Positions 12,138 to 54,471 of a stretch of 64,000 nt of DNA are shown here, piece by piece. Location: the NCBI GenBank assembly GCA_021849075.1, contig JAJZTH010000007.1, forward strand, positions 1-64,000, in the 5' to 3' direction. Position 1 is the stretch's first letter. The number at the start of each line of letters is the position of its first letter. The notes under the pieces are model-generated. The model was given only the letters and a program-made list of their open reading frames with translations, ran no database searches and was not told the origin of the DNA. The DNA comes from Pseudomonadota bacterium (GTDB taxonomy: Bacteria > Pseudomonadota > Alphaproteobacteria > Sphingomonadales > Sphingomonadaceae). Made by a program: the position numbers and the translations under genes.

Positions 12138-12163
12138 CTTATCATATGGGCCATTATGATAAG
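12138..12163. promoter_or_regulatory. Perfect 9-bp inverted repeat upstream of marR-type gene
   Basis: CTTATCATA and TATGATAAG flank an 8-bp spacer, 91 bp upstream of the MarR-family start. The size and symmetry suit a MarR dimer, so autoregulation is likely (inference). No second copy of this exact sequence was seen. Confidence 0.5.
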
Positions 12164-24535: not shown

Positions 24536-24568
24536 ATTCCATCTCTCCAATATAGGCGTGTCTGCGCT

Positions 24569-33749: not shown

Positions 33750-33769
33750 TACATTCAAACATGAATGTA
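33750..33769. promoter_or_regulatory. TACATTC-N6-GAATGTA operator-like site (TonB receptor promoter)
   Basis: Perfect 7-bp arms with spacer AAACAT, 133 bp upstream of the TonB receptor start. It is one of five sites of this type; the most perfect one sits at the TetR promoter (36971-36996). Confidence 0.65.
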
Positions 33770-33902
33770 TGTCTTTACTCATTGCGGTAAGCACGCTAAC
33801 CATATGGCGTGCGGACGGCAGGGTGAGTGCATAGCCGATCCGTACATCCCGTTGACAAAAGAAGAGCGTCCGAATGCGGCGCGACATGGGGAGAGGATTG
33901 GC

Positions 33903-36233
33903 ATGACGAGCAACAGGCTGTTGTTGTGCGCGTCGCTCATTGCGATTGCGCAAATGAATCATGTGGCGATGGCGCAGGAGGATGGGGCCGGTAGTGCCGC
34001 CCGCCAGCAGGCCGACATCATCGTGACGGCCCAGCGCCGCGAACAGAGGCTGGAGGAAGTGCCGCTGACGGTGGCGGTGCAGTCCGCCGAACAACTGGCG
34101 CGGGCGGGTGTGACCGACAGTCGCGGTCTTCAGCAACTGACGCCGGGGCTTGTCTTCCAGCAGCAGAGCAGTTTCCTCAATCCGTCGCTGCGCGGCATTT
34201 CCACCACCGTCGTCACGGCAGGCGCGGAAAACCCGATCGCCATCTATCTCGACAATGTCTATGTTTCCAGCTTCGCCGGATCGATCCTGTCGCTGCCAGA
34301 TGTGGAACAGATCGAAGTGCTGAAAGGGCCGCAGGGCACGCTATTCGGGCGTAATGCCACCGGCGGCGCGATCCGTATTTCGACCAGGGAGCCGGGCAAT
34401 GAGGTCGCGGGCAAGGTGGATGTCACGACCGGCTATTATGATGGCGCAGGTGCAAGCCGGTCGGCCTATGATCTGGCGTTCAAGGGCTTTGTTTCCGGCC
34501 CGATCGTGGAAGACGCGATCGCCGCCAGCCTCGCCTTCTCCTATCGCAAGAGTAATGGATATGGGCGCAATGTCGCCTATTCGCAGGTGTCGGACAGCGT
34601 GCGGCAGGCATTTGGCAGCGACCGCATGATGTATCTGGAAGACAAGCTGTTGCGGGGCAAGCTACGTCTGACGCCGACGGATAATCTGGACATTTTATTG
34701 GCTGGATATTGGAACGAATGGGAGTCTGATCGTGGCCAGATCGGCGTGGTGCAATATGGCGGCACCGCGACCGGGCCGGCGCAACTGAACGACGCCAATG
34801 GCAATCCCTACAACTACATCGTCGGCAAGCGACCCTGGCAATATGCCTATGATGCGCTTCGGCCCAATGCGTCTGTGGAAGGACGCGGGGCCAGCATGCG
34901 GATCAAATGGGATCTCGACGTCGGCCAGTTTACATCGACCACGGCCTGGTCGCGGGCGCGTAGCCGCGAATATGTCGATTCCGATGCGACCTATTCGCCT
35001 GACTGTCTGGAAATAGCCAATGTCGGCGCAGGGGTCGGCTGCGTCGCGCCATTCGATACGATATTGGACAAGACCTTCCAGCAGGAACTGCTCTTCTCCT
35101 CCAAAGACTTCGGCATCTTCAGCTTCGTTGCCGGGGCAAATTATTACCGGGGAACATCGGTGGTGGACGTTCGGGTCAGCGACTTTGCGACGGGCGCTTT
35201 CCCCGCCGGCGATCTGTCGGTCAATTATCCGTCCATCTTTACCTATAATACCGGCATTCGCACCAAGGCGATCGGTCTCTTTGCCGAGGGCACGTTCAAA
35301 TTCACCGATCGCCTGACCGGCGTGGCGGGCATCCGCTATAGCGACGAAAAGAAGACCGGGACGACATCCTTCTTTGGTGGCGCGGATTCGCCGCTGGTGC
35401 CGATCAAGGATGACGCCTGGACGCCGCGCGTGTCGCTGATTTACGAGATTGCCGATCGCACCAACATCTATGCGACTTGGTCGAAAGGGTTCAAGTCTGG
35501 CCTGATCCCGGGCGGCAATGCCGCCTATATTCAGGGCAGCGCAGATCCCCTGCCCAATGTGCGGCCGGAAAAGATCACGGCCTATGAAGTGGGCTTCAAG
35601 ACCGCGAAGACCGGCGCCTACACCTTCAATCTGGCGGCCTTTTATTATGACTATAGCGATGTGCAGGTGCAGGCCAGTCTGGGTGCGGGTGGCACCGTCA
35701 TTGCCATCCAGAATGCTGCCAGCGCCACCATCTATGGCTTCGACTCGGAAGGCACGCTGACCCTGAGCGACGATTTCAGCCTTCGCGCCGGCGCATCCTA
35801 TATTCCCCGCGCGCGCTATGACCGGTTCCCCGGCGCGCAGGTCGCGTTGCCGCCGGGCAGCTCTGGCGGCTTCGTCAATGGCGAACTGGTGGATTTGAAA
35901 GGCCGGCGGCTGTTCAAGACGCCTAAATTCACCGGCAACATCGCGCTCAATTACGAACATGAACATGATTGGGGCAAGATCGATGCGAGCGTGAACGCCT
36001 ATTATGCCTCGCGCCTCTATTTCGATCCGACCTATCTCTTTTCCACCAAGGAGTTCAAACTGGGGGGCGAGGTCGGCTTCACGCCCGCAGGCAGTCCGTT
36101 CCGGGTCGCGCTATGGGTCCGCAACCTCACCAACAACGACGCCTATGTCTCCTATCAGTTGACGTCCAACGCATCAGTGCTGACTCCGGGCGAGCCGCGC
36201 TCCTTCGGCCTGACGGCGGGATACAAGTTCTGA
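33903..36233 (+). CDS. TonB-dependent outer-membrane receptor 1
   Basis: 776 residues. Signal peptide to about residue 25 (CASLIAIAQMNHVAMAQ), TonB-box-like IIVTAQRREQRLEEVPLTVAV, plug domain with GLQQLTPGLVFQQQ, KGPQGTLFGRNATGGAI, then a beta-barrel ending in YKF. It belongs to the sphingomonad catabolic-receptor group (Fe-siderophore fold) that usually imports large hydrophobic substrates. A GGGAGAGGATTGGC site precedes ATG 33903. A TACATTC operator-like palindrome lies upstream, so it is likely under the TetR protein at 36276. Confidence 0.95.
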   Translation: MTSNRLLLCASLIAIAQMNHVAMAQEDGAGSAARQQADIIVTAQRREQRLEEVPLTVAVQSAEQLARAGVTDSRGLQQLTPGLVFQQQSSFLNPSLRGISTTVVTAGAENPIAIYLDNVYVSSFAGSILSLPDVEQIEVLKGPQGTLFGRNATGGAIRISTREPGNEVAGKVDVTTGYYDGAGASRSAYDLAFKGFVSGPIVEDAIAASLAFSYRKSNGYGRNVAYSQVSDSVRQAFGSDRMMYLEDKLLRGKLRLTPTDNLDILLAGYWNEWESDRGQIGVVQYGGTATGPAQLNDANGNPYNYIVGKRPWQYAYDALRPNASVEGRGASMRIKWDLDVGQFTSTTAWSRARSREYVDSDATYSPDCLEIANVGAGVGCVAPFDTILDKTFQQELLFSSKDFGIFSFVAGANYYRGTSVVDVRVSDFATGAFPAGDLSVNYPSIFTYNTGIRTKAIGLFAEGTFKFTDRLTGVAGIRYSDEKKTGTTSFFGGADSPLVPIKDDAWTPRVSLIYEIADRTNIYATWSKGFKSGLIPGGNAAYIQGSADPLPNVRPEKITAYEVGFKTAKTGAYTFNLAAFYYDYSDVQVQASLGAGGTVIAIQNAASATIYGFDSEGTLTLSDDFSLRAGASYIPRARYDRFPGAQVALPPGSSGGFVNGELVDLKGRRLFKTPKFTGNIALNYEHEHDWGKIDASVNAYYASRLYFDPTYLFSTKEFKLGGEVGFTPAGSPFRVALWVRNLTNNDAYVSYQLTSNASVLTPGEPRSFGLTAGYKF

Positions 36234-36240
36234 GGAAAGG

Positions 36241-36270
36241 GAGGGGGTGCTTTCGGGCACTCCCTCTTTT
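36241..36270 (+). terminator. Intrinsic terminator of TonB receptor gene
   Basis: GAGGGGGTGC pairs with GCACTCCCTC (one G-U pair) across TTTCGG, followed by TTTT. It lies 7 bp after the receptor stop and before the converging TetR gene. Confidence 0.75.
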
Positions 36271-36275
36271 GCCGG

Positions 36276-36917
36276 TCACAGGCGGACGCGGACGAATTCC
36301 AGCAGCATGATGCGGGTGTCGGCCATCGTCTTGTCAATGGCGGCTGATGTCTGGCTGAGCAGTTGCGCCATTGCCGCGCCCTCGCTCATCATCAGGGTGA
36401 TTTCCAGACTGGTTTCGATCAGCGGCGCGGGGATATGGCCGTCGAGGTTGCGGCGCCAGAACTCCCGGAACTGCTGGGTCAGCGGGCGTTGCAATTCCAG
36501 CGTGCGGTCCTTGAGCGCCGGATCGCCGCGACTGGCGCTGAGCAGATCATAGACGGCGATGGCGTCGGGCGAGACGGTCAGCGCCGTCACCTGATCGAAC
36601 AGGGCGGCGACACGGTCGATGCCGCGAACGCCATCGGGCACGCTGTAGCTTTCAAATGCCTGTGAGAGCCGATCGTCCAGTTCACGCACGGCGGCCAGGA
36701 TCAATTCTTCCCGGCTGCTGAAATGATGCTGGATCGCGCCGCGGGTCAGATTGGCGTCGGCTGCGATCTCGCTCATGCTGGTGGCGGCGATGCCGCGTTC
36801 GCGCATCAGACGAATGGCGCTGTCGAGCAGACCGGCGCGCGAGGTAGCGCTGCGCTCTTCCTGCGAACGGCGGATCCGGCCGGTCCCTAACTTCTCTATC
36901 TTTTCGCGTGTCGCCAT
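36276..36917 (-). CDS. TetR-family transcriptional regulator
   Basis: 213 residues from ATG 36917. The N-terminal helix-turn-helix is clear: RAGLLDSAIRLMRERGIAATSMSEIAADANLTRGAIQHHFSSREELI (about residues 27-73). The C-terminal ligand domain is unassigned. An in-frame ATG at 36974 would lie inside the operator and has no ribosome site, so 36917 is preferred. It faces the P450 gene across a perfect 10-bp inverted repeat (36971-36996); the same motif precedes four other genes or operons nearby, so it is probably the local repressor. Confidence 0.92.
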   Translation of the reverse strand: MATREKIEKLGTGRIRRSQEERSATSRAGLLDSAIRLMRERGIAATSMSEIAADANLTRGAIQHHFSSREELILAAVRELDDRLSQAFESYSVPDGVRGIDRVAALFDQVTALTVSPDAIAVYDLLSASRGDPALKDRTLELQRPLTQQFREFWRRNLDGHIPAPLIETSLEITLMMSEGAAMAQLLSQTSAAIDKTMADTRIMLLEFVRVRL

Positions 36918-36970
36918 TGGCTTTTCGGCATGCCCTGTTCGGTTCCCCTTTACAAGGTCCCGTTGCTTGT

Positions 36971-36996
36971 ACATACATTCGATAAAGAATGTATGT
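36971..36996. promoter_or_regulatory. ACATACATTC-N6-GAATGTATGT operator between tetR-type and P450 genes
   Basis: Perfect 10-bp arms with spacer GATAAA, in the divergent promoter of the TetR gene (leftward) and the P450 gene (GTG 37050, rightward). The best-conserved of five such sites (33750, 36971, 40910, 44041, 45391). Confidence 0.75.
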
Positions 36997-37049
36997 TGCT
37001 TCTATGCCATTTTCCGGCGCAATGGCAATCATATACCCGGAGAGATGAT

Positions 37050-38321
37050 GTGACGGCCACCGATACGCTCGATTCCGTGACCAGTTTTGATTTCACCGCG
37101 CCTGCGTTGCTGGCCTACCCCCATGCGGCGCTGGCGACAGTGCGGGAGCAGGGGCCGGTGGTGAAGGCGCGCGTGCCCGGCGGCATGGACGCCTATCTTG
37201 TCACCAGCTTTGCCGCCGTGTCGGAGGCGACCAAGCGGACCGAAGATTTCTCGTCGCAGATGGGGCACCTGACCAACCGGCCAAACATGGACAATCATGA
37301 GGCGCTGGCGATATTGGCGGAGGCCGGAAAGGCGGGGTCGGGCCTGTTGCTGGTGTCCGACGACCCCGATCACAAACGCTATCGCGCGCTGGTCAATGCC
37401 GTGTTCGCCCATGGCCGCATCGCCAATCTGCAACCGCTGATCGAACGGATCGTGACGCAGTTGCTGGACGATATGGCGGCCAAGCAGGAGGCGGATTTCG
37501 TCAATGAATTCGCCGTGCTGCTGCCCACCTATGTCATCGCCGACATATTGGGGCTGGACCGCGATCACTGGCATCTGGTGCGCCAATGGTCGGACGCCGC
37601 CATTCTGCTGGTCAGCCGCATGGGAACGATGGAGCAGGAGGTCGAGGCCGCGAAGCAGGTGGTGGCGTTCATCCGCTTCATCCGCGAAAGACTGGCGCTG
37701 CGCCGGGCCGAACCCGCAGACGACCTGATTTCCAATCTGGTCCATGTCGGCGTCGATGGCATCCCGCCGCTCAATGATGATGAGGCGACCGCGCTGACGC
37801 TGGAAATTGCCGTGGCGGGCAATGAAACGACCCGCAACACGCTGATGAGCGGACTGGTGCAATTGCTGCGGCATCCCGAGCAAATGGAGATGCTCCGCGC
37901 CGACCCGTCGCTGATCGCCAATGCGGTGGAGGAATTGCTGCGCTATGAGACGCCGGCAACGTCGATGTGGCGGATCGCCACGCGCGACACCGAACTGGCG
38001 GGCATATTCATCCCGGAAGGCGCGCCGGTGCTGTTACGGTTCGATGCCGCCAATCGCGATCCGGCGCGTTTCCCGGAACCGGATCGGTTCGACATCACCC
38101 GCAAGGAAGCGCGCAACCATGTCGCCTTCGGCGCGCCGGGCGTACACCGCTGCCTGGGGCAAATGCTGGCGCGCAAGGAACTGGCGATCGCCCTGCCGGC
38201 GCTGCTCGCCCGGCTGCACGACATTCGCATTCTGGAGGGCAGCGACACGGCCTATTGGCCCGGCCTGCTGCATCGCGGGATCACCAGCCTGCGGATCGGA
38301 TATCGGGCGGTTAATCCATAA
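37050..38321 (+). CDS. Cytochrome P450, copy 1
   Basis: 423 residues, soluble bacterial class. I-helix AGNETT (256-261, with the acidic Glu and Thr for oxygen activation), ExxR E295-R298, and heme loop FGAPGVHRCLG with Cys368. It hydroxylates or epoxidises a hydrophobic substrate with a separate ferredoxin. The start GTG 37050 follows GGAGAG by 5 nt. It is first in a pair with Rieske oxygenase 3 (39 bp apart) and directly downstream of the TetR operator. Confidence 0.93.
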   Translation: MTATDTLDSVTSFDFTAPALLAYPHAALATVREQGPVVKARVPGGMDAYLVTSFAAVSEATKRTEDFSSQMGHLTNRPNMDNHEALAILAEAGKAGSGLLLVSDDPDHKRYRALVNAVFAHGRIANLQPLIERIVTQLLDDMAAKQEADFVNEFAVLLPTYVIADILGLDRDHWHLVRQWSDAAILLVSRMGTMEQEVEAAKQVVAFIRFIRERLALRRAEPADDLISNLVHVGVDGIPPLNDDEATALTLEIAVAGNETTRNTLMSGLVQLLRHPEQMEMLRADPSLIANAVEELLRYETPATSMWRIATRDTELAGIFIPEGAPVLLRFDAANRDPARFPEPDRFDITRKEARNHVAFGAPGVHRCLGQMLARKELAIALPALLARLHDIRILEGSDTAYWPGLLHRGITSLRIGYRAVNP

Positions 38322-38360
38322 TCATTAGAGCATATGTTATCAGGAACAGGATGATCGATC

Positions 38361-39794
38361 ATGGCGACCATTGTACGCAAATCCGAAATCACCCGGGGAT
38401 ATGGCACGAAAGAACGGCCGGTCACGCAGGAGGTGTGGGACAAGGAGACATTCTTCCCCGATCATGTGTCGCTGCATATCGACGGCACGATCGAACCGGA
38501 CAGCCGGCATTTCGACCACAATATCTATATCGATCCCGGCATCGCTGCGCTGGAGCAGGAACATGTGTGGGAGAAGAGCTGGCTCTACATCGGCCGGGAC
38601 GAAGATCTGCCCAATGTCGGCGATCGCATGCCGGTCAATGTCGGCCGCCGGTCCTACATGATCGTCCATAGCGCGCCCAACGAGTATAAAGCCTATTATA
38701 ACAGCTGTCCGCACCGCGGCACCGAACTTTGTTCGCAGAAGGAAAATGCGGCGTCGATCCGCTGCCCCTATCATGGCTGGGAATGGCAGAATGGCGGGAA
38801 GCTGAAGCGCATTCCGAGCCATTGGGATTTCAAGGAAATCACGCCCAATAATGGTGGCTTGCCCGAAGTGAGGCTGGAACGCTGGGGCGGGTTCCTGTTC
38901 ATCAACGCCGACAAGGATGCGCCGTCGCTTAAGGATGCGCTGGGCCTGATCCCGGATCATTTCAAGGAATTCGATTACGCCAATCGCTATACCTATGGCC
39001 ATTTCCGGCGGGAGATGGATTGTAACTGGAAGGTGGCGCAGGAGGCGTTTCAGGAAGCCTATCACCTCTATGCGACCCATCCCGAAGCGGTGCCCTTCGC
39101 TGGTGATGCGCAGGGCAAATATGATGTCTGGGAAACCAAGGGCAGCTATATCGGCCGCAATTCGACCTATTCGGCAATTCCGTCCGCCCATGCGCCAGCG
39201 GATACTGATCCGGTCGCATCGGCCCAGATGTTCCTGCAAACGACGGGCGATTGGCATTATCCCGGCCATCCGGTGACACAGTTGGACCCGGACAGGGATT
39301 TGCGCGCGCAGGTGGCGGACTGGATACGCGGGGCGTATCGGGCGAAGCATGGCAAGGACACCGAATTGCCGGACGCCATCCTGCTCGATTCCCTGCTCTA
39401 TTTCTTCTACCCCCATTGCTGCTTCTGGCTGTCGGAGGCCGTGCCCTTCACCTATCAATTCTGGCCGCACGCAACCGACCCGAACAAAAGCTATTTCGAA
39501 GTGCGGATGCTCTATCCGGTCGGCGAAGGCGAGGCGCGACCGGCGGCTGCGCCGCGCGTAGATATCGGCCCGGACGAGTCGATCTTTGCGACCATGCAGG
39601 AGAGCTTCGGCTTCCTCGCCTATATTTTCGATCAGGATTGTAGCAATTTGCCACGTGTGCAGCGCGGCGCGCATTCGGCCAATATCGAAAATCCCACCAC
39701 TTTCCTGGGCGCTTATCAGGAATCGATCATCCAGCAGTGGAACAAGGTGATCCTGGCCGCGATCGAAGAAGGGCAGGCGCGCAAACGCACCTGA
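38361..39794 (+). CDS. Rieske non-heme iron oxygenase, alpha subunit (copy 3)
   Basis: 477 residues, close paralogue of copy 1 (same MATI start, RWGGFLFINADKDAP, EAFQEAYHLYATHPE). Rieske ligands C116-x-H118 and C135-x2-H138; iron histidines H235 and H240. It follows the P450 gene by 39 bp, suggesting joint control by the TetR protein. An intrinsic terminator at 39819-39850 ends the unit. No reductase beside it; the donor may be the ferredoxin at 28101. Confidence 0.93.
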   Translation: MATIVRKSEITRGYGTKERPVTQEVWDKETFFPDHVSLHIDGTIEPDSRHFDHNIYIDPGIAALEQEHVWEKSWLYIGRDEDLPNVGDRMPVNVGRRSYMIVHSAPNEYKAYYNSCPHRGTELCSQKENAASIRCPYHGWEWQNGGKLKRIPSHWDFKEITPNNGGLPEVRLERWGGFLFINADKDAPSLKDALGLIPDHFKEFDYANRYTYGHFRREMDCNWKVAQEAFQEAYHLYATHPEAVPFAGDAQGKYDVWETKGSYIGRNSTYSAIPSAHAPADTDPVASAQMFLQTTGDWHYPGHPVTQLDPDRDLRAQVADWIRGAYRAKHGKDTELPDAILLDSLLYFFYPHCCFWLSEAVPFTYQFWPHATDPNKSYFEVRMLYPVGEGEARPAAAPRVDIGPDESIFATMQESFGFLAYIFDQDCSNLPRVQRGAHSANIENPTTFLGAYQESIIQQWNKVILAAIEEGQARKRT

Positions 39795-39818
39795 CGCCTG
39801 CAACCGAATAAGGGGGCT

Positions 39819-39850
39819 GCGGCGCCGGAGCGATCCGGCGCCGCCTTTTT
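39819..39850 (+). terminator. Intrinsic terminator of P450-Rieske unit
   Basis: GCGGCGCCGGA and TCCGGCGCCGC form a perfect 11-bp stem with GCGA loop, then CTTTTT. It lies 24 bp after the Rieske stop and just before the converging reductase gene. Confidence 0.85.
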
Positions 39851-39856
39851 ATATCG

Positions 39857-40804
39857 TCAGGATACAGCCTTGCGCGGCGCGACCCAGGAGGGGGCGGCGC
39901 GCTCGGTCGCGGCGGCATAATCCGGGTGAAGACAATCCTCCAATATGTCGACGCGGTCTTCGCGTGGGGACCAGCCCAGTTGTGTGCGGGTGCGCGGGCA
40001 ACGCTGGCGGCTGTTGGATTGCAGGATGATCTTGCCCAGCCCCTTGTCCCAGATGTCGCAGGCTTCCTCGACCGTGACCGATCGGGTCGAAACGCCCAGA
40101 TGCTGCGCGATCCGCTGCGCCATCACGCCATAGGCGACCTCGCCCGACACCGCGAAATAGAGCGCGCCGGCCTCGCCCTTTTCGATGGCCAGGCGATAGA
40201 TTTCGGCCAGTTCCTCGACATGGATGTTGGAATAGACGTTGAGGCCGCGTCCGACATGGCAGACCGCGCCGGTCGTGCGCGCCGAATGATAGAGATCGGC
40301 GATGATCTGGCTGCCGCCATTGCCCCAGATGAGCGAGGGGCGGATCACCATGCCGCGCACGCCCTGTTTCGCGGAATCGCGGGCGATGGCTTCATTGATC
40401 AGGCGGGGGGCGATCTGGCGCTTGGGTTCGAACGGCTCATCCTCGGCAAAGCTGCGCTCATCCCACAGGCCGCCGGTCGGGATCGACATGAGGCTGGTGC
40501 CGCTGGTGAAGATGAACGCCTTGCCGCTGCCGGCCAGATGATCGACGATCGTCTGCGTCACCTGTTTTTCATGTTCCAGCATCAGCTGGGCCGCGAAGAT
40601 GACGACATCCTGCCCGTCCAGCATGGCCGGGATCGAGTCGATCCGGGCCAGGTCGCCGCGCACGGCGCGCACGCCCATGGCCTGCAGGGTCGCGTCATTG
40701 GCGGCGTTGCGGGAAAAGCCCGACAGGTCATGGCCATGAGCCGCCAGATTGGCGACGATGTGCCGCCCCAGATAGCCGGTCGCGCCGAAGATGATGATTT
40801 TCAT
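39857..40804 (-). CDS. NAD(P)-dependent epimerase/dehydratase-family protein (extended SDR)
   Basis: 315 residues. N-terminal GATGYLGRHIVANLAAHGHD nucleotide fold, VVIFAAQLM, TSGTSLMSIP, and a C-terminal CDIWDKGLGKIILQSN typical of atypical extended SDRs. The classic YxxxK dyad is not evident, since the region reads RQIAPRLINEAI. It probably reduces a carbonyl or epimerises a bulky intermediate. GGAGG precedes ATG 40804. The TACATTC operator-like site lies 106 bp upstream. Confidence 0.85.
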   Translation of the reverse strand: MKIIIFGATGYLGRHIVANLAAHGHDLSGFSRNAANDATLQAMGVRAVRGDLARIDSIPAMLDGQDVVIFAAQLMLEHEKQVTQTIVDHLAGSGKAFIFTSGTSLMSIPTGGLWDERSFAEDEPFEPKRQIAPRLINEAIARDSAKQGVRGMVIRPSLIWGNGGSQIIADLYHSARTTGAVCHVGRGLNVYSNIHVEELAEIYRLAIEKGEAGALYFAVSGEVAYGVMAQRIAQHLGVSTRSVTVEEACDIWDKGLGKIILQSNSRQRCPRTRTQLGWSPREDRVDILEDCLHPDYAAATERAAPSWVAPRKAVS

Positions 40805-40909
40805 CGTTCAAGCCTCCGCTGCATGGGCGATGGGCGCGGACAGGCCGCAGGGCTTGGGTTCGACAGTCATGATGGGCATCCTCCTCCAAATGTCATTGCG
40901 TTGACATAA

Positions 40910-40931
40910 ATACATTCAATAAAGAATGTAT
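40910..40931. promoter_or_regulatory. ATACATTC-N6-GAATGTAT operator-like site
   Basis: Perfect 8-bp arms with spacer AATAAA, between the epimerase-family gene (leftward, start 40804) and the DUF7064-like gene (rightward, start 41099). One of the five TetR-type sites. Nothing else was seen in the 294-bp gap. Confidence 0.7.
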
Positions 40932-41098
40932 CTTGCGTTTGTGGTCGGATGCAATAAGTTTCGATCCAGTTCCTGAAGGGTTTGACCAAAGCCCTTCCCA
41001 AAAGCGGGCCTGATAACAGGCCGGGCGACCCGGTTCAGGCGGATCGCCCGGCATAGCCGCCTGCAATAATGACAAGAGCCAAGAGGAGAGGACCACAG

Positions 41099-42328
41099 AT
41101 GCTCACCCCCTATGACGAATTTCCCGTCCATCAGGCGTCCCGGCCGTTCAGCTTCATTCCATCGACCGACTATAGCTGGGACGACGGCTATTATTTCGGC
41201 GTCTTCAACCCCGATGAGGGGATTTTTATTGCGACCGGTGCCCGGGTCAACCCGAACACCGACATGTTTGGCGGCTATGCCTTCATCAATGACAATGGCA
41301 TCCATTCGACCACGCGCTTCAACCGCGCCTGGCGCGGCAATTTTAACGTGGCGATCGGTCCCTGGCGGGTCGAATTTGTCGAGCCGCTCAAGAAAATCCG
41401 CCTGGTGCTGGAGGATAATGGCAGCGGCCTGTCCTTCGACATATTGTGGGAGGGCGTGTCCCCCGCTTTTCTGGAGGATCATCATTCGGCCGAAAATCGC
41501 GGTCGGATGACGACCGACCAGAGCCGCTATTCGCAGCCCGGCGTGGCGACGGGCTGGGCCGAATATCAGGGAAGACGGTTCGACATCACGCCAGACACAT
41601 GGTTTGCCGCACGCGACCATAGCTGGGGCCTTTATGCCGAGCGGCCGCCGCTGGCGCCGCTCGCCTCGCTATTGCCGCCGCGCCTGAAATCCGGGCCGCA
41701 GCGCGCGATGCGCTGGTGGAACTGCTTCGTCGCGGGCGATTATAGCGGCTTCTTCCACCTGCATGAAACGCCCGAGGGCGTTCAGGCGAAGATGAACGAT
41801 GTATTCGGCACGCCGCTGGGCGGGCATGTGTTCAAGGGTTGGGGCAGCGATGCGCTGCATTTCACGTCCGCCCGGCACGAAATGAACTTCGTGGAAGGGA
41901 CGCGGATGCTGACCGATGCGACGCTGCATCTGGAGGATGACCGGGGCGGGGCGTGGACAATCCGCTATGATGTCGCCGCGCCGCCCTGGATGGGGCAGAC
42001 GATGGGCTATCATCCGGGCAGTTGGAAGGATGGCGGCACCTTCCACACCTATCATGGGTCGGAGGAACTGGCGATCGAATGGGAGACGCTGGACTGGTCG
42101 CAGCAGCCCTTCACCTATATCCCCTACAAGGTCAGCGGCGAGCAGCTGGCGACCAATTTCGGCGAAGGCACCGGCGTCGAGGACAAGGGCAATGATGGCA
42201 ACAAGACCCATGGCGTCGAATATCTGATGCGGGTGACGCTGCATGCGCCCGACGGGTCGGTCCACACCGGCGCGGCGCAGGTCGAGATGTTCATCAACGG
42301 CCGCTACGATCCCTATGGCTTTGCATGA
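41099..42328 (+). CDS. DUF7064/DUF7065-like protein, copy 3
   Basis: 409 residues, the longest of the three copies; soluble, aromatic-rich, with [13 protein letters not shown] in the conserved motif position. AGGAGAGGACCACAG precedes ATG 41099. It overlaps the following SDR start by ATGA, so the two proteins are probably made together. Pairing with an SDR repeats that at 21414/22474. Function unknown; family naming moderate. Confidence 0.75.
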
Positions 42329-43101
42329 AGCTGGGGCTTGAAGGCCGGGTCGCGCTGGTATCGGGCGGCAGCGCCGGCATGGGCCGCGCGATCGCCCGCG
42401 AACTGGCGCGGGAAGGCGCGCATGTGATGGTGGTCGCGCGGCGCGAAGAAGCGCTGTGCGACACTGTTGCCGCGATCGAGGCGGAGGGCGGCCGGGCCGG
42501 GTGGATCAGCGCGGATATGGCCGATGAAGCCGGGATCATGCGGGCGGTGGCGCAGACGCGCCGCCTGTTTGGCGATCCCGATCTGGTCATCGGCAATGTC
42601 CGGTCGGTGGTGCGATACGGGTTCGAGGAAGCGTCGAACGACGATTTTCGGCTGAGCAACGAGCAGGTCGTGCTGTCCTTCGCCATGCTGGTGCGCGAAA
42701 CCCATGGCGCGATGAAGGCGAAGGGCTTTGGCCGTTTCGTCAATCTGGGATCGGTGTGCGCGAAGGAGCCGCATCGCTTCTTCGACATCATCCTGTCCAA
42801 CACCTACCGCACCGCCGCCGTCGGGCTGGCGCGCAGCCTGTCGAACGAACTGGCGCCCCATGGCATCACCGTCAACACGATTGCGCCGGGCAGTATCGAC
42901 ACCGGGCTGAACCAGGAAACGCAGGGCGGCGGGGCGGAGGCGCGAACCCAGCGGGAATCCCCGCCCGTCATCCAGATGGGACGGCATGGCCGGCCCGATG
43001 AGGTGTCGGGTCTGGCTGCGTTTCTTTGCTCCGATCGGGCCAGCTACATCACCGGGCAGACGATCGCGGTCGATGGCGGTTGGACGCGCGGGCTGTTCTG
43101 A
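42325..43101 (+). CDS. SDR with atypical catalytic motif
   Basis: 258 residues. [12 protein letters not shown] nucleotide motif and ARREEAL, but NNAG is replaced by GNVRS, and the YxxxK region reads [17 protein letters not shown], so Tyr and Lys are not in classical positions. C-terminal [10 protein letters not shown] is normal. Such atypical SDRs exist in the FabG-like group and may use another base or be non-redox. Coupled to DUF7064-like copy 3 by ATGA. Confidence 0.88.
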
Positions 43102-43120
43102 TGCGCATGGGGGCAGAGGC

Positions 43121-43618
43121 GTGACGCTGGAGGAAATGCTGGCGCGTGAGGCGATCCGCTACACGATCGCACTCTATAATCGGGCGTCCGATACGGCCGA
43201 TTATGAGCTGCATCATCAGGTTTTTCACCCCGACGCGCTGTTCGAAGTGCAGGGGCAGGGCGCGTTGCAGGGGCCTGACGCCATCATCGCGATGCTGCTG
43301 CCCGCGGCGCGGCGGCGTGGCGCATTCGATCCGGGTAATTTCCAGCGGCATAATCTGACCACGACGATGATTGATTTCACCGCGCCGGACCGGGCGACGG
43401 CAACGACCTATATCATCGTCGTCACCGAATTGGGGATCGACCATGCGGGCCGCTATGATGACGAATTTGTGGCGCATGGCGACCGGTGGCTGATTGCCCG
43501 CCGGCGCGCGACGATGGAATGGTCGCGGCCGGATTCGCGGTTCGTGCGCTGGCTGGGGAATGGCCGGCCGGTCGATACGGCCGGCGATGCCACGGAGGCT
43601 TATAAAAATTCGGCGTAG
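43121..43618 (+). CDS. SnoaL-like (NTF2-fold) protein
   Basis: 165 residues from GTG 43121. TLEEMLAREAIRYTIALYNRASDTADYELHHQVFHPDALFEV is the SnoaL_4/NTF2-like start, with RGAF, RHNLTTTMIDF and DDEFVAHGDRWLIARRRA. Such cone-shaped proteins act as hydratases, isomerases (ketosteroid isomerase fold) or oxygenase beta-like subunits. It follows the atypical SDR by 19 bp; its 3' end overlaps the converging ABM gene by 19 bp. The start is uncertain because the ribosome site is weak. Confidence 0.8.
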   Translation: MTLEEMLAREAIRYTIALYNRASDTADYELHHQVFHPDALFEVQGQGALQGPDAIIAMLLPAARRRGAFDPGNFQRHNLTTTMIDFTAPDRATATTYIIVVTELGIDHAGRYDDEFVAHGDRWLIARRRATMEWSRPDSRFVRWLGNGRPVDTAGDATEAYKNSA

Positions 43619-43998
43619 TTCGTCGCGGTTTGCGGGTGGACGGTCGATTTGCCCTGGGCATAGACGTCGAAAATATCCGGTCCCATTTCCAGGCCGCTGA
43701 ACAATTCCATCGTCATCGGGCCACTGCACAGGTCGAGCATCTGGCTGACCAGTTGCTTGAAGGCGTCGGTCTTGCGGATGGCGTTCACTGCCTCCTCATT
43801 TTTGTAGGATTCGATCGCGACCATGACATTGGGATCGCGGCCAAAGCCGTAAAAGACGAAATTGGCATTTTCCTGCATGAAGGCCGTGGCATTTTGCCAG
43901 AGCGGGTTGAAGATCGCCAGAAATGCGTCCCGCTTGCCCGGTTTGATCGGGTAGCGGGATATGAAGATGTTCGATTGGGTGACGATGATGCCTGTCAT
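43600..43998 (-). CDS. ABM-domain-like small protein
   Basis: 132 residues. IFISRYPIKPGKRDAFLAIFNPLWQNATAFMQENANF and VAIESYKNEEAVNAIRKTDAFKQLVSQM follow the antibiotic-biosynthesis-monooxygenase/quinol-monooxygenase pattern (dimeric ferredoxin-like fold, cofactor-free in some). GGGAGAGGACAT precedes ATG 43998. Its promoter carries the variant TACATGC-N6-GAATGTA site. It converges on the SnoaL-like gene with a short overlap. Confidence 0.75.
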   Translation of the reverse strand: MTGIIVTQSNIFISRYPIKPGKRDAFLAIFNPLWQNATAFMQENANFVFYGFGRDPNVMVAIESYKNEEAVNAIRKTDAFKQLVSQMLDLCSGPMTMELFSGLEMGPDIFDVYAQGKSTVHPQTATNYAEFL

Positions 43999-44040
43999 AT
44001 GTCCTCTCCCTTGTCAGCATCCTTGCCGGCCGTCTTAATT

Positions 44041-44060
44041 TACATGCAATAAAGAATGTA
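44041..44060. promoter_or_regulatory. TACATGC-N6-GAATGTA operator-like site
   Basis: One mismatch from the TetR consensus (TACATTC), same AATAAA spacer as at 40918. It lies 43 bp upstream of the ABM gene start at 43998. Confidence 0.6.
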
Positions 44061-44112
44061 TGTTATCAAGGGTGGAACGGGTTGAAACATGGCATCCCGT
44101 TCCTGTCATCTG

Positions 44113-45270
44113 TCAGTCGAATGCGTCCAGCGCGCCATAATCGTCGATCGCGGCGCCCATGCGGCGCAGAAATTCCAGCGTCGTATGTTCCGGCTGCATC
44201 GCGGGCATGTCGTCCGTCGGGCGCATGGTGATCGTCCAGAAGGCGAAGGCGGTGAACATCTGCTGGCGGACATTGCGCAGAGCATCGTCAAAATTGATCT
44301 TCGCCACGCCCTTTTGCGCCATCAGGTCGATATAGAGGCGCAGCAGATCCTCCAGCCATGCGCGGCGCTGCTCCACGGTCAGCGCGGTCAGGGTGGAAAA
44401 GATGAAGTCGCGGCTCCAGTGACCGATCGTGGTCAATTGCCAGTCGGCAAGGCCCATGCGGTCATCGGGCGTGATATACCAGTTTTTCAGATGGACATCG
44501 CTGTGAATGAGGGTGCGGGGCAATTCCAGATGGCGCGCCACGGAGCGTTCGGTGGCGTCCCAGATTTCGCCGCTGCGTCGGAGCAGACCGGCGGTCAGGA
44601 CATGGGCCGCCGCATCAACGCCTTTGGCGCAAAAGTCGGGAAAGTCGGGTGCGCCGTGCATCATGTCGCGCCACCAGACCGGCCAATGTTTGAAGGGCAG
44701 GGTGGCGCTGCCCAGTTCCGGGCTTTCATAGAAGCGGGAGTGGAGGCTGGACAGCGTCGTCACCAGCGCTTCGGCCTGATTGCGCGTCAGCGTGGTGCGT
44801 TCGTCCGGGAAATGCACCTTGCCCGCCATGTCGTCCATCATGATCAGATAGGCGAAACTGTCGGGATCGAATTTGGCGAAGCGCGGCGTCGGCGCTTCGA
44901 AATCGATGCGGGGTCGGACGAGATTGTAGAAGTCCGATTCTGCCCGCGCCGTATCCGACACGCCCAGGACGATGCGATTTTCCAGCGTTTCCGCCGCCTT
45001 GCAGAAGACCGTGGCGGGCAGGCCGGCGGCCCGGGCCGCGTCATTGTAGGACAGGAAGATGCGACGTCGATTGGAGGAGCCATCGTCCCGTTCGTCAAAG
45101 CGAAAATCCGTCACCGCGCCGCCCGGTATGTCGGCGCACAGCACCGCCGTCAGCCAGTTATGCGTGATTGCTGCATAGCTGGTGGGCACTTCATGTCTCT
45201 GGGTCACGGGGCGGTCATGATCGACCTCCGCCGCATAGGCCGCCTTGATCGCTTCCGCCGATGCTCCCAT
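44113..45270 (-). CDS. APH-fold kinase, paralogue of the gene at 62685
   Basis: 385 residues. Catalytic loop H256-x-D258-x4-N263 (IHSDVHLKN) and D276 in GLADWQL. Shares SSNRRRI-LSYNDAARAAGLP-VFCKA with the kinase at 62685 (TSNRRRIYLDYNDAGQAAGLP). Catabolic APH-like proteins often act on hydroxylated intermediates; here it is divergent from the SDR at 45467 and lies next to the TetR regulon. AGGAG precedes ATG 45270. Confidence 0.9.
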   Translation of the reverse strand: MGASAEAIKAAYAAEVDHDRPVTQRHEVPTSYAAITHNWLTAVLCADIPGGAVTDFRFDERDDGSSNRRRIFLSYNDAARAAGLPATVFCKAAETLENRIVLGVSDTARAESDFYNLVRPRIDFEAPTPRFAKFDPDSFAYLIMMDDMAGKVHFPDERTTLTRNQAEALVTTLSSLHSRFYESPELGSATLPFKHWPVWWRDMMHGAPDFPDFCAKGVDAAAHVLTAGLLRRSGEIWDATERSVARHLELPRTLIHSDVHLKNWYITPDDRMGLADWQLTTIGHWSRDFIFSTLTALTVEQRRAWLEDLLRLYIDLMAQKGVAKINFDDALRNVRQQMFTAFAFWTITMRPTDDMPAMQPEHTTLEFLRRMGAAIDDYGALDAFD

Positions 45271-45378
45271 CGATCCTGCTCCTTAAAATTGATCGTTATG
45301 AAGCATATGATTAGCTTGTATAGAGATTTTGGCAAGGGTGAGGATGGCGTACATAATAAGGATTTGCACTTTGGCCAT

Positions 45379-45410
45379 ATGCATATAATATGCATGCAAA
45401 CATGAATGTA
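45379..45410. promoter_or_regulatory. Divergent promoter with TGCATGC-N6-GAATGTA and ATGCAT sites
   Basis: A degenerate TetR-type site (45391-45410; right arm perfect) overlaps ATATGCATATAATATGCAT. It lies between the kinase (leftward, 45270) and the SDR (rightward, 45467). Weakest of the five TetR-type sites. Confidence 0.5.
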
Positions 45411-45466
45411 AGTGCGGTTGTGCGTGAGCGGTCGACGGTCGCGCCAGCCATGATGGGAGAGAGGAT

Positions 45467-46294
45467 TTGAACCAGCAAGCCATGGCGTTTGGCCTGGACC
45501 TGAAGGGCAAGGTCGCCGTCGTTCTGGGCGCTTCGGCGGAAGGTGGGACCGGCTGGGCGATCGCCGAAACGCTGGCCCGTAATGGCGCGAGCGTCGTGGT
45601 CGCCGCACGCAGCCTGCCGCCGCTGGAGCGGCTGGCGGAGCGAATCGGCGGCGCGGCCTTCCGCTGCGACGCCGGGGTCGAAGAGGATATCAGGGCGCTG
45701 GCCGCCTTTGCGCTGGAACGCTATGGCCGGGTCGACATTGCGGTGAACAGCGCCGGCCTGCCCGTCATGGGCATGATATCGGAAATGACGCAGGAACTGC
45801 TGGACAATGCGACCCGCGTCAATTTCCACGGGCCGACCTTTTTCATCAAATATATGGCCCAGGCGATCGACAGCAACGGATCGATCATCTTCATATCGTC
45901 CATGTCGACGACCCATCCGGTCATGCCGCACATCGCCTATGCCGCCGCCAAGTCGGCCGCCGATTGCATCGTGCGCTATGCCGCCATTGAATATGGACCC
46001 CGCAACATAAGGGTCAATTCGATCCTGCCGGGGCCGATCAATTCGGACATGGCGAAGGAAGCCTTTGCCGATCCCGATTTCGAACGCGCCTATGCGCGCG
46101 AAATTCCGATCGGGCGAGTCGGCCTGCCGGACGATTTCGCCAACGCCGTGCTGTGGCTGGCCGGGCCGTCCTATGTGTCCGGCCTCAATTTGCAGGTGAA
46201 TGGCGGCAACCAGCTCACCCGCATGCCGCGCCCCGATGAACTGGCCAAGGGCGCCGATTCCTATGGCTCCGGCAAGGCGCTGGGCGACCGCTGA
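45467..46294 (+). CDS. SDR with LGASAEGGTGWAI nucleotide motif
   Basis: 275 residues. Nucleotide motif LGASAEGGTGWAIAETL, catalytic Ser in FISSMSTT and YAAAK dyad; C-terminus ends GADSYGSGKALGDR. Close paralogue of the SDR at 56685 (LGASAEGGTGWAISEAL, ending GADAYRSDK). TTG 45467 is the likely start since GGGAGAG lies 5-6 nt upstream; ATG 45482 is the alternative. It heads an operon with a kinase-like gene and an orphan gene. Confidence 0.9.
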   Translation: MNQQAMAFGLDLKGKVAVVLGASAEGGTGWAIAETLARNGASVVVAARSLPPLERLAERIGGAAFRCDAGVEEDIRALAAFALERYGRVDIAVNSAGLPVMGMISEMTQELLDNATRVNFHGPTFFIKYMAQAIDSNGSIIFISSMSTTHPVMPHIAYAAAKSAADCIVRYAAIEYGPRNIRVNSILPGPINSDMAKEAFADPDFERAYAREIPIGRVGLPDDFANAVLWLAGPSYVSGLNLQVNGGNQLTRMPRPDELAKGADSYGSGKALGDR

Positions 46295-46325
46295 CAATAG
46301 CAACGCATAATGGAGAGGTAGAGGC

Positions 46326-47381
46326 GTGGAACTGCTGAAACGGCCGCTCGCCGAATATATCCGCCACCTTTACGGGGAAGAGGCGGTTCTGGAACATGAT
46401 GTGCGCTATCCCCGGGGATCGTCGCGCCTGACCTGGTTTGTCGATTATCGGGAACGGCCCGGCGCTGACCTGTCCTCCATCGTCCTGCGCGCCGATTTCG
46501 AGGGCGGGAGTACGATCCACAGCTCGCTGGAGCAGGAATATTTCATGTATGAGCGGCTGGGGCAGAGCGCTGTCCCGGTCGCGCCGGTGCTAAGGTGGGA
46601 AGCGGATGAACAATGGGCCGAGCGTCCCTTCTACATCCGCCGGCAGATCAAGGGCGACTGGGAAATCCCGCATTTCAAGGACCCCGATCCCCAATATGAC
46701 GCGATGCGCATTGCCGTGTCGAAGGAGCATATGCGCAAACTTGCATTGGTGCATCAGGTGGACTGGAAGGCGCTCGGCTTTGATACGCGCTTGTCCGCGC
46801 CCGCCAGCCGGGAGGCATGCGCCGGGCACTTCATCGACCGGCTGATGGCGCAACTGGCCGATTTCCAGCGCGAACCCATGCCAGTGGTGGTCGAATGCCT
46901 GTCCGCGCTGAAGAAGGGCGCGCCGGTCGCGCCCTGCATTTCGCTGTGCAAGGGCACGAACGGGCTGGGCGAGGAGATATTCCTGGATGGCGAGATCGTC
47001 GCCATGAGCGACTGGGAGGAAGCATCCATCGGCGATCCGGCGGCCGATTTCGCATCCTTGCAGGATCTGATCCCGGAGATTGAGCGGAATGGCGCCAAGC
47101 TCTGGGGGCTGGAACAGGCGTTGACCTATTATCGGGAGGTCAGCGGCATCGACCTGCCGATCGAGAATGTCCATTTCTATCAGCGGCTGCGCACGCTGGG
47201 CGCCATCCTTTATGGGCACAAGGCGGCGGTCGTCCTGCACAATGGCAAAGCGGATATCCGGCAGGCATGGACCGGGACCGAAGTCTTCCATCTGGCCAAG
47301 CGCATGCTGGCTGGCGCGGGCGGGTTGGGAAAGCCCATCGATCCTGCCTGGTTTGCTCAAATGAACGAGACTGTCGCATGA
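46326..47381 (+). CDS. Degenerate APH-fold kinase-like protein
   Basis: 351 residues. ATP-binding N-lobe (DFEGGSTIHSSLEQEYFMYERL) and the metal-binding D229 in MSDWEEASIGDPAADFA are kept, but the catalytic loop reads C-K-G-T-N-G-L-G-E-E instead of H-x-D-x4-N, so His, Asp and Asn are all lost. It may be a pseudokinase or scaffold. GTG 46326 is the start after GGAGAGGTAGAGGC. It lies 31 bp after the SDR and overlaps the next gene by ATGA. Confidence 0.8.
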   Translation: MELLKRPLAEYIRHLYGEEAVLEHDVRYPRGSSRLTWFVDYRERPGADLSSIVLRADFEGGSTIHSSLEQEYFMYERLGQSAVPVAPVLRWEADEQWAERPFYIRRQIKGDWEIPHFKDPDPQYDAMRIAVSKEHMRKLALVHQVDWKALGFDTRLSAPASREACAGHFIDRLMAQLADFQREPMPVVVECLSALKKGAPVAPCISLCKGTNGLGEEIFLDGEIVAMSDWEEASIGDPAADFASLQDLIPEIERNGAKLWGLEQALTYYREVSGIDLPIENVHFYQRLRTLGAILYGHKAAVVLHNGKADIRQAWTGTEVFHLAKRMLAGAGGLGKPIDPAWFAQMNETVA

Positions 47382-47887
47382 CCCCGATCCTGACCCCGAC
47401 CGCAACCGAAGTGCTGCGCTGCGTGCGCGAAACCATGGAAAGCGGCATCATTCCATCGCTGTCGGGCCGCACCGAACGCAGCAACGCCGCTACGATCCAA
47501 CATATGCTGCGCTTTGTGGAGCATCGCATCGACAAGGAAGGGCAGTTGTTGTTCGACGAAATTGCCTATCTGCGCGACCTTTTCCCCGCTGCGCTGGATT
47601 GGCTGGGCAGCCAATCGGATGCGGCGGGACTGAAGGCCGCGATCGGGCGGGCGATCGACGCGACGCCTGATCCGACCCTCTATCCATCGCTTGCGCGCCT
47701 GAGCGAAACGGTCGCCGCGCTGCGGCAGCATGTGTGCGATTTGCTGCTGCTTTTACAGGCCGCGCCGGAGAATGACGGTCAGGCGGTCGACCTCCATCAG
47801 AGGCTGCGCGATTATATCGTGTGGCAACTGGAACAGGAAGGCGGCATGGTGGAGCCAGCCTTCATCGGCCATGGGCCGCGGCGGTAG
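47378..47887 (+). CDS. Orphan helical protein coupled to the kinase-like gene
   Basis: 169 residues, predicted mostly helical (RETMESGIIPSL, LQHMLRF..., VAALRQHVCDLLLLLQ, LRDYIVWQLEQEGGMVEP), soluble, with no signal peptide. I do not recognise a family. Its start overlaps the stop of the degenerate kinase (ATGA), so the two proteins may form a complex. An Asp/Glu/His content near the N- and C-termini does not form a known motif. Confidence 0.65.
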   Translation: MTPILTPTATEVLRCVRETMESGIIPSLSGRTERSNAATIQHMLRFVEHRIDKEGQLLFDEIAYLRDLFPAALDWLGSQSDAAGLKAAIGRAIDATPDPTLYPSLARLSETVAALRQHVCDLLLLLQAAPENDGQAVDLHQRLRDYIVWQLEQEGGMVEPAFIGHGPRR

Positions 47888-53004: not shown

Positions 53005-54471
53005 ATGTCGATTTCCGCGCGTCTGCTGCGCTCGCTCAACCGTACCGCCGCCATCGTTCATGACGATGTGGTCTATGCTTCCAATGAGGAGGCGCTGGTC
53101 GCATCGCTCAAGATATTGGAGACGCGGGAAAGTTTTCACGACCCGCTCTTTTCCGGCTGGCGCGACCGGCTGGAGGCGCAACTGGCTGGGCTGATCGATC
53201 GCCTGTCGCTGTCGACTATCGCGCCCGACCTGTTCGATGCCGTCGAAGCGGTCCGCGCGACGCTGGCGGCTGCGCCCGGCGGCAAGGCGGAGCGGGAGGA
53301 CATGCAGCGCGCAACGATGCGGGACTGGTCGCTGCTGGTCGAGCGGCTGACGTCTGATCCGCGCATCGATCCGGCCGAGCGGACCCGTATCGTGTTCGAA
53401 ACGTCGGACGCGGAACTGACCCGCATCGGTGAATTGTGCGGCGACTTGCTGCCGGCCGAAGATATGCAGGATACGGCCGTCACGGCTTCGCGCCTTCAAG
53501 CCTATCTGGCTGATCGTTTTGACGATGCGAATTTGCGCGTCACCGATTTCCGGCCACTGCCCGGCGGCTATGGCAAGGAAACCATCCTGTTCATGGTCGA
53601 GGGACAGGCGCTGTCGGGCGCGTTTGTCATGCGTCGCGATCGGGACGAGCCGACGATGGACAATGATTGCCATCGCGTGCGCTATGAATTTCCGGTTATC
53701 CGGGCGGCCTATGACCATGGCTTCCCCGCGCCCGAAGCTTTGTGGGTGGATGAAGAGCATAGATTGCTGCCCGGCGGCGATTTCCTGATCATGACGCGGG
53801 CGCCGGGCACGAGCGGCGGCAATGTCCATGGCGCGGCGGGCAAGGTCGATCAGTCCCTGGTCGACCTGCTGGCTGCCAGCGTCGCGCGCCTGCACCAGTT
53901 GCCGCCAATGCGCGAACTGGGCGATCTGACCGACGGGATCGCATCGCATCTGTGGGATTTGCCGCTTGCGGAAGTGACGCGCCGTTACATTCAGTCGATC
54001 AAGGATCTCTATCTGCGCGAAATGGCGATGCCATCGCCGGCGGTGCTGGCGCTCTATGGCTGGTTGATGGACAATATTCCCGAAGCGCCGGGCCGGCCGG
54101 TGCTGTTGCACGGCGATATTGGCTTCCACAATTTCATCGTGGACGAGGGGCGACTGAGCGCCGTGGTCGATTGGGAATTTTCCCATATCGGCGATCCAGC
54201 CGACGATGTCGGCTATGTCCGCAACACGGTAGGCAATTCGCTCGACTGGAAGGCTTTCATGGACGCTTATCGTGTGGCGGGCGGTCCCGATCTGGATGAG
54301 GCGCGGGTGCGTTTCTTCCAGATATGGGGGCATGTCCGCAACCTGACCGCCAGCCAGCTGACGACCAATTGTTTCGAGACGGGCAAGCTGGACGAACTGA
54401 AGCTGGGCCATGTCGGCCATTCGATGATGGCCGGATTCCTTCGGCCGATCCGGGACATGATGGCCGGCTAA
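53005..54471 (+). CDS. APH-fold kinase with N-terminal extension, paralogue of 9579
   Basis: 488 residues. The C-terminal APH domain shows H369-x-D371-x4-N376 (LHGDIGFHN) and D389 in VDWEFSHIGDPADDVG. The first ~160 residues match the helical extension of the kinase at 9579 in placement (LQAYLxxxx near 164 vs 141). It lies 29 bp after the FAD oxidoreductase and converges with the Zn alcohol dehydrogenase, whose end it overlaps by 4 bp. GGGAGAAGAATGA precedes ATG 53005. Confidence 0.9.
   Translation: MSISARLLRSLNRTAAIVHDDVVYASNEEALVASLKILETRESFHDPLFSGWRDRLEAQLAGLIDRLSLSTIAPDLFDAVEAVRATLAAAPGGKAEREDMQRATMRDWSLLVERLTSDPRIDPAERTRIVFETSDAELTRIGELCGDLLPAEDMQDTAVTASRLQAYLADRFDDANLRVTDFRPLPGGYGKETILFMVEGQALSGAFVMRRDRDEPTMDNDCHRVRYEFPVIRAAYDHGFPAPEALWVDEEHRLLPGGDFLIMTRAPGTSGGNVHGAAGKVDQSLVDLLAASVARLHQLPPMRELGDLTDGIASHLWDLPLAEVTRRYIQSIKDLYLREMAMPSPAVLALYGWLMDNIPEAPGRPVLLHGDIGFHNFIVDEGRLSAVVDWEFSHIGDPADDVGYVRNTVGNSLDWKAFMDAYRVAGGPDLDEARVRFFQIWGHVRNLTASQLTTNCFETGKLDELKLGHVGHSMMAGFLRPIRDMMAG

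Follow-up and report, generated by a model that had tools for sequence, protein, structure and literature searches.

Genes for the uptake and oxidation of a compound lie together in the 64,000-nucleotide stretch of DNA analysed here (positions 1 to 64,000 of contig JAJZTH010000007.1, assembly GCA_021849075.1; hereafter the window), and inverted repeats of the form TACATTC-N6-GAATGTA stand in five of the promoter regions around them. Which protein reads these repeats, and which genes does it switch? From the sequence, the five sites are very probably bound by the neighbouring TetR-family protein (36276-36917), so that uptake and breakdown genes could be switched together. We put at about 0.8 the probability that this protein is the local repressor of a five-operator regulon and is released by a compound of the island, with binding, repression and inducer all deduced rather than observed.

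The motif was scored by counting mismatches over its two arms, with the pattern read backward as control. The preliminary description of this DNA had listed five inverted repeats, and all five were recovered, at 33750, 36974 and 40911 (0 mismatches each), 44041 (1 mismatch) and 45391 (2 mismatches):

33750-33769, operator 1: TACATTC-AAACAT-GAATGTA; 134 bp upstream of the TonB receptor start (33903); also in G468 and G469
36971-36996, operator 2: ACATACATTC-GATAAA-GAATGTATGT, perfect 10-bp arms (36971-36980 and 36987-36996), core 36974-36993; equidistant (57 bp) from the tetR and P450 starts
40911-40930, operator 3: TACATTC-AATAAA-GAATGTA; divergent promoter region of the epimerase and Rv3169-family genes; also in G468 and G469
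44041-44060, operator 4: TACATGC-AATAAA-GAATGTA, 1 mismatch; 43 bp ahead of the ABM gene; shared by G469 (1 mismatch) and G468 (2 mismatches)
45391-45410, operator 5: TGCATGC-AAACAT-GAATGTA, 2 mismatches; divergent region between 44113-45270 (minus strand) and the SDR gene at 45467 (plus strand); identical in G468 and G469

The right arm GAATGTA is unchanged in 5/5 sites, mismatches being confined to the left arm of operators 4 and 5. Operators 2, 3 and 5 lie between divergent genes, and those other than operator 2 are 43-169 bp from the starts of the receptor (33903), epimerase (40804), Rv3169-family (41099), ABM (43998), SDR (45467) and kinase-like (45270) genes, counted from start codons that we infer. 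At up to 3 mismatches the window holds six matches, compared with 0.76 ± 0.83 in 100 shuffles (maximum 3); the sixth (39623, 3 mismatches) falls within the Rieske oxygenase gene, and the scan at this threshold found no site among the window's genes at 28.5-33.7 kb or beyond 47.9 kb. Random scatter over the genome had been named beforehand as the outcome that would speak against a regulon. A motif search of the whole source genome (3,668,232 bases in 66 contigs, 95.6% complete) found only the same five places at up to 2 mismatches, and the backward control gave one. At up to 3 mismatches there were 19 matches compared with 13 for the backward control, that is, little or no excess beyond the five. 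Were five places scattered at random, the chance of all falling within 11.7 kb would be about 5e-10. When arm spacings from N0 to N12 were compared in the window, N6 gave five matches of up to 2 mismatches, N10 four and the other 11 none. The four N10 matches are three of the same five sites read in an overlapping register, with one site counted two times, and they arise because the extended arm ACATACATTC contains two overlapping half-sites, as in acrAB.

Comparison across the genus, for which 94 Sphingobium genomes were sampled, linked the site to the protein. TetR matches with E < 1e-90 were found in 5/94 genomes (the source genome, G468, G469, G431 and G418), and the perfect palindrome was present in these same five, one copy lying 57-81 bp from the tetR match in each (Fisher value for co-occurrence, 1.8e-8). 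A search of contigs for matching loci returned five loci, two of them close, from Sphingobium sp. AP50 and YR768. G468 and G469 carry all five sites and resemble the source genome across the block (proteins 84-99% identical), and therefore add little; the informative genomes are G431 and G418, whose TetR proteins are 75% and 73% identical to that of the window. In the tetR-P450 promoter the core arms are invariant in 5/5 genomes (ACATACATTC / GAATGTA kept) and the spacer is variable; with the two divergent orthologues, in G431 and G418, the spacer has changed and both arms are intact. Alignment among relatives further showed that operator 1 is kept while the flank on its far side diverges.

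The protein itself was assigned to its family by several measures. A TetR_N helix-turn-helix is present (PF00440, 55.9 bits with a cut-off of 24), the AlphaFold model (pLDDT 76) has the all-helical two-domain TetR fold, with NalC as best structural match (Z 17.1, root-mean-square deviation 3.1 over 188 residues), and operator 2 provides the palindrome at the own promoter that is a trait of the TetR family, in 5/5 genus genomes with an orthologue. Scores stayed below the cut-offs of the AcrR equivalog NF007949 (45 bits, cut-off 271) and of KstR NF033703 (19.9 bits, cut-off 280). The recognition helix, NLTRGAIQHHF, is identical at 11/11 positions across all five genus genomes, and the two divergent orthologues retain 64-65/71 residues of the helix-turn-helix part versus 85-87/127 of the C-terminal part. 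TRGAI occurs in only one of the genome's 15 TetR_N proteins, the one encoded at 36276, and no site of up to 3 mismatches was found in the loci (2.0-3.1 kb) of the other 14.

Published operators provided a further comparison. The Escherichia coli acrAB operator is TACATACATTTGTGAATGTATGTA (PMC10597343), 17 acrR-type palindromes are tabulated in PMC1453763, and oligonucleotides for the TtgR and PmeR operators are given in the plasmid table of PMC4538802. We scored five published operators, including two of the 17 rows of the PMC1453763 table; each differs from TACATTC-N6-GAATGTA by 1-2 mismatches, which letter shuffles equalled in 0-5 of 20,000 cases. Judged by its letters, the motif is an AcrR/TtgR/PmeR-type operator (ACATACATT / AATGTATGT type). 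E. coli AcrR has the same extended half-site, ACATACATT, as the window, and its acrAB operator is one mismatch from the motif, whereas its 10-bp repeats are 4 bp apart and 8 bp separate the ACATACATT halves of operator 2. The operators of TtgR (Pseudomonas putida) and PmeR (P. syringae) fit with two mismatches, and the PmeR inverted repeat is described as overlapping its own and the pump promoters (PMC4538802). TtgR (7k1a) is also the second-best PDB sequence match and has the TRGAI recognition helix of the window TetR, aligning as VTRGAI in a printed alignment limited to the DNA-binding part; TtgR is the one of the three repressors covered by this helix comparison. Among the 50 Foldseek matches listed, other TetR structures came first, MtrR and QacR (VIA rows) being included and TtgR and E. 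coli AcrR not, a result that does not exclude AcrR/TtgR kinship.

Collectively, the restriction of the sites to the block, their co-occurrence with the TetR orthologue, the arms conserved in 5/5 genomes, the unique TRGAI helix and the match to AcrR, TtgR and PmeR operators support the TetR regulon that the preliminary description had proposed.

Beyond the genus, an orthologue search at order level (E <= 1e-22) returned the source genome alone among 396 genomes, and one at family level (E <= 1e-25) the source genome and G334 among 397, in each case among the matches listed (at most seven candidates per genome); a plasmid collection searched at 1e-15 gave no TetR match. G334 represents another genus (83% complete, 7% contaminated). 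Its TetR is 33-36% identical, with TRGAIQHHF unchanged, and on its contig of 185,747 bases the N6 motif matches twice at up to 3 mismatches, each time in a divergent promoter of catabolic genes:

117409 of the G334 contig: 1 mismatch; 39 bp upstream of an Oxidored_FMN gene, with an enoyl-CoA-hydratase gene diverging from it
147668 of the G334 contig: 2 mismatches; between FAD_binding_2 and molybdopterin-oxidoreductase genes

The other 12 spacings from N0 to N12 gave 0-7 sites each on this contig at up to 3 mismatches, and just one of up to 2 mismatches, at N10.

Several observations weigh against assigning the sites to the TetR protein. The left arm is degraded in 2/5 sites. The published operators were chosen for an expected likeness of AcrR/TtgR operators to the motif and then checked. 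The Fisher value is too small, because the source genome, G468 and G469 count as one lineage, and P450 orthologues at least 86% identical occur in the same five genomes, so that co-occurrence alone marks the block and not TetR within it. G352 and G425, with weak TetR matches (E about 1e-16; 30-31% identical, other helices), have only 3- and 4-mismatch sites upstream; G431 and G418 each have three more 2-mismatch places elsewhere in the genome; and the G334 tetR has no site at its own promoter, the gene following two AMP-ligase genes on the same strand. Within the block, promoter position and the DNA-binding head point to TetR. In the 16-kb loci around P450 homologues that are 55-58% identical (from G399, G462 and, twice, G431) there is no site of up to 2 mismatches, and the operator is therefore not simply tied to the P450 family. 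Matches at up to 1 mismatch occur in 16/94 genomes, namely the five with TetR and 11 with a single 1-mismatch site each (backward control: one match in 7/94 genomes); the sites of these 11 were judged unrelated, none of the genomes having a TetR match at E <= 1e-15. Eight of the 11 (G303, G424, G436, G442, G444, G451, G467 and G473) have in common a TACATTCCCTAGAGAATGGA palindrome, perhaps the operator of another regulator.

The alternative that survives best, improbable as we judge it, is that TetR occupies the five sites to activate transcription, or modulates it weakly while a separate activator governs the pathway; the genes would then not simply be derepressed. A consensus promoter scan of the region found 11 promoter-like sites compared with 4.5 ± 2.4 expected; operator 5 overlaps one on the minus strand (45412-45385), another lies 15 bp from operator 3, and operators 1-4 are overlapped by none. 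That four of five operators, 43-169 bp from start codons, lack an overlapping promoter-like site counts against simple repression and could mean that an activator is needed, with the qualification that alphaproteobacterial promoters may escape such a scan. On the other hand, AcrR, TtgR and PmeR, which have operators of this kind, are described as repressors (PMC4538802, PMC10597343), and Pfam and NCBIfam found no other regulator among the genes of 33.9-47.9 kb.

A good deal less likely is that another regulator, such as the MarR-family protein encoded at 12255-12800, binds the sites and the adjacent tetR is merely one of its targets. This protein lies in the same island and has homologues in all five genomes; in G431 and G418 the closest one shares 67-68% identity, and at 3.6-6 kb from the palindromes of these two genomes there are less similar ones (34-37%). 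A MarR protein with 69% identity to that of the window is encoded in the G334 locus as well, so that the G334 sites do not single out TetR, a further point against our assignment. Against MarR, the promoter of its gene carries another perfect palindrome, CTTATCATA-N8-TATGATAAG (12138-12163, 92 bp upstream), which occurs once in the window and not at all in 100 shuffles and is probably the protein's own operator; it is perfect in G468 and G469 and was not found in G431, G418 or G334. No TACATTC-type site of up to 3 mismatches was found near the window MarR gene, nor in the 15-19 kb that surround the best orthologue of each of four relatives, G431, G418, G468 and G469. Given both its own palindrome and this absence, MarR is an unlikely binder of the five sites. 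That the repeats are a dispersed repeat or mobile element with no regulatory role is scarcely credible: operators 1 and 5 share one spacer and operators 3 and 4 another, as if copied, but 5/5 lie in promoter regions, none occurs elsewhere in the genome at up to 2 mismatches, and the arms are kept in G431 and G418 with unrelated spacers.

What, then, would the TetR protein control? The block contains the following features:

33903-36233, plus strand: TonB-dependent receptor (Pfam PF00593, PF07715)
36276-36917, minus strand: TetR-family regulator, 213 amino acids (PF00440, E 3.6e-15); inferred start ATG 36917
36945-36957: CCCCTTTACAAGG, a further conserved element, lying between operator 2 and tetR; invariant in 5/5 genomes
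37050-38321, plus strand: cytochrome P450 (PF00067); inferred GTG start
38361-39794, plus strand: Rieske ring-hydroxylating oxygenase alpha subunit (PF00848, PF00355)
39819-39844, plus strand: terminator-like hairpin, 11 pairs, 10 of them G-C, with a T tail; 3' of the P450-oxygenase unit
39857-40804, minus strand: epimerase/NmrA-like NAD(P) protein (PF01370, PF05368)
41099-42328, plus strand: Rv3169-family protein (NCBIfam NF053593, 224.6 bits with a cut-off of 150, scanned as 41069-42328; no Pfam match)
42325-43101, plus strand: SDR oxidoreductase (PF13561)
43121-43618, plus strand: SnoaL-like protein (PF13577); also next after the SDR gene in G431 and G418
43600-43998, minus strand: ABM-domain protein (PF03992)
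44113-45270, minus strand: APH/EcKL kinase-like protein (PF01636, PF02958)
45467-46294, plus strand: SDR oxidoreductase (PF13561)
46326-47381, plus strand: APH-like protein (PF01636), presumed in the unit of SDR 45467
47378-47887, plus strand: last gene of the SDR 45467 unit; no Pfam or NCBIfam match at E 0.001

The preliminary description had taken 33903-47887 as one substrate-induced block. The sites are indeed confined to it, and that part stands; as a single block it is too neat, since, judged by the sites, there would be seven target units, spread over both strands, in addition to tetR, and induction by a substrate is a prediction. Operator 5 is 121 bp upstream of the kinase-like gene at 44113-45270, which therefore probably belongs to the target set too. 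The terminator-like hairpin at 39819-39844 follows the P450-oxygenase unit, so that transcription of the Rv3169-family unit must start from a promoter of its own, and operator 3 is placed there; terminator-like sites in the region number two, compared with 9.5 expected from shuffles. The element CCCCTTTACAAGG lies in the interval from operator 2 to the tetR start and may serve as part of a promoter or as a further binding site; it could possibly contain the P450 -35 (TTTACA, 36949-36954), at a place where the scan did not call a promoter. Just upstream of the epimerase gene, the minus strand at 40808-40870 holds a 20-codon open reading frame, MTVEPKPCGLSAPIAHAAEA, behind a GGAGGAGG stretch resembling a ribosome site; in G468 and G469 an in-frame gap of 3 bases shortens it to 19 codons, and no counterpart was seen adjoining the G418 epimerase homologue.

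In the mechanism that we propose, the TetR protein, with its AcrR/TtgR-type head, would bind as a dimer, possibly as two dimers, at ACATACATTC-N6-GAATGTATGT and weaker versions of it in the five operators. It would thus occupy its own divergent promoter with P450 and the promoters of the TonB receptor, the epimerase and Rv3169-family genes, the ABM gene and the SDR/kinase-like pair, and would block transcription when bound. A hydrophobic substrate or intermediate of the island would bind the C-terminal domain and release the protein, as for TtgR and PmeR, turning on uptake and first oxidation together; the weaker operators 4 and 5 may open first.

A smaller state of the locus is seen in G431 and G418, where tetR, the operator and the P450, Rieske, Rv3169, SDR and SnoaL-like genes are contiguous in this order, with a single site of up to 3 mismatches in 35 kb. 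In the window, the epimerase gene and the hairpin interrupt the Rieske/Rv3169 order, and operator 3 is located there. The epimerase has a 61% homologue on a different contig of G418, in a 10-kb locus without a site of up to 3 mismatches. The G431 and G418 regions also contain the kinase-like gene (70%) and a 56-57% homologue of SDR 45467 with no further site, and G418 has an 86% orthologue of the receptor at 48871 beside tetR, again with no further site. The receptor at 33903 has no close orthologue in either genome (best match 39% in G418, 32% in G431). This comparison suggests growth of the regulon, with an operon interrupted in the window lineage and each added or separated unit adjoining an operator, with gain, not loss, as the presumed direction.

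We tentatively propose, as an idea somewhat short of even odds, that one branch of the AcrR/TtgR lineage of efflux repressors was taken over in sphingomonads as island regulator of hydrophobic-compound catabolism, its portable operator being kept across genera with different genes under control, and newly arrived receptors and detached pieces of operons joining through operator copies. The analysis links a well-known efflux-repressor operator to catabolism and presents a local regulon in a small and a larger state inside one genus. TtgR and PmeR regulate multidrug efflux pumps and the targets of AcrR are efflux and motility, unlike the window, where the neighbours of tetR are the receptor, P450, Rieske oxygenase and SDR genes. 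Pfam and NCBIfam scans revealed no efflux gene in the annotated set of 33.9-47.9 kb; two MFS transporters lie in the window at 23315-25873. A published report of the motif in sphingomonads was not found among the papers listed from the open-licence literature.

Two known sphingomonad systems resemble the proposed regulon in organisation. EdcR of Caenibius tardaugens is a TetR-type regulator. It is described as a repressor of estradiol catabolism in a steroid cluster, with palindromes at several promoters, and its operator TnnCnnTACnAnTnGTAnnGnnA differs from the window motif (PMC8700777). In Sphingobium sp. SHPJ-2, of the same genus, PheR is a single repressor that couples uptake and catabolism of a hydrophobic compound, but it is an IclR-family protein with the unrelated operator core GCAACG (PMC13273656).

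The P450, Rieske, SDR, thiolase, acyl-CoA dehydrogenase and FAD-oxidoreductase genes of the island suggest a steroid- or terpenoid-like compound, a choice that no family match decides, and the gene content fits a hydrophobic polycyclic compound. Naming one regulator and five operators for an island with several proteins of unknown function (the Rv3169 family and the kinase-like proteins) makes the co-regulated genes and the inducer findable. The island encodes three DUF7064/DUF7065 or Rv3169-family proteins (2074-3066, 21414-22421 and 41099-42328), and six APH/ecdysteroid-kinase-like proteins lie within the 64 kb (9579-10979, 44113-45270, 46326-47381, 53005-54471, 55563-56651 and 62685-63839).

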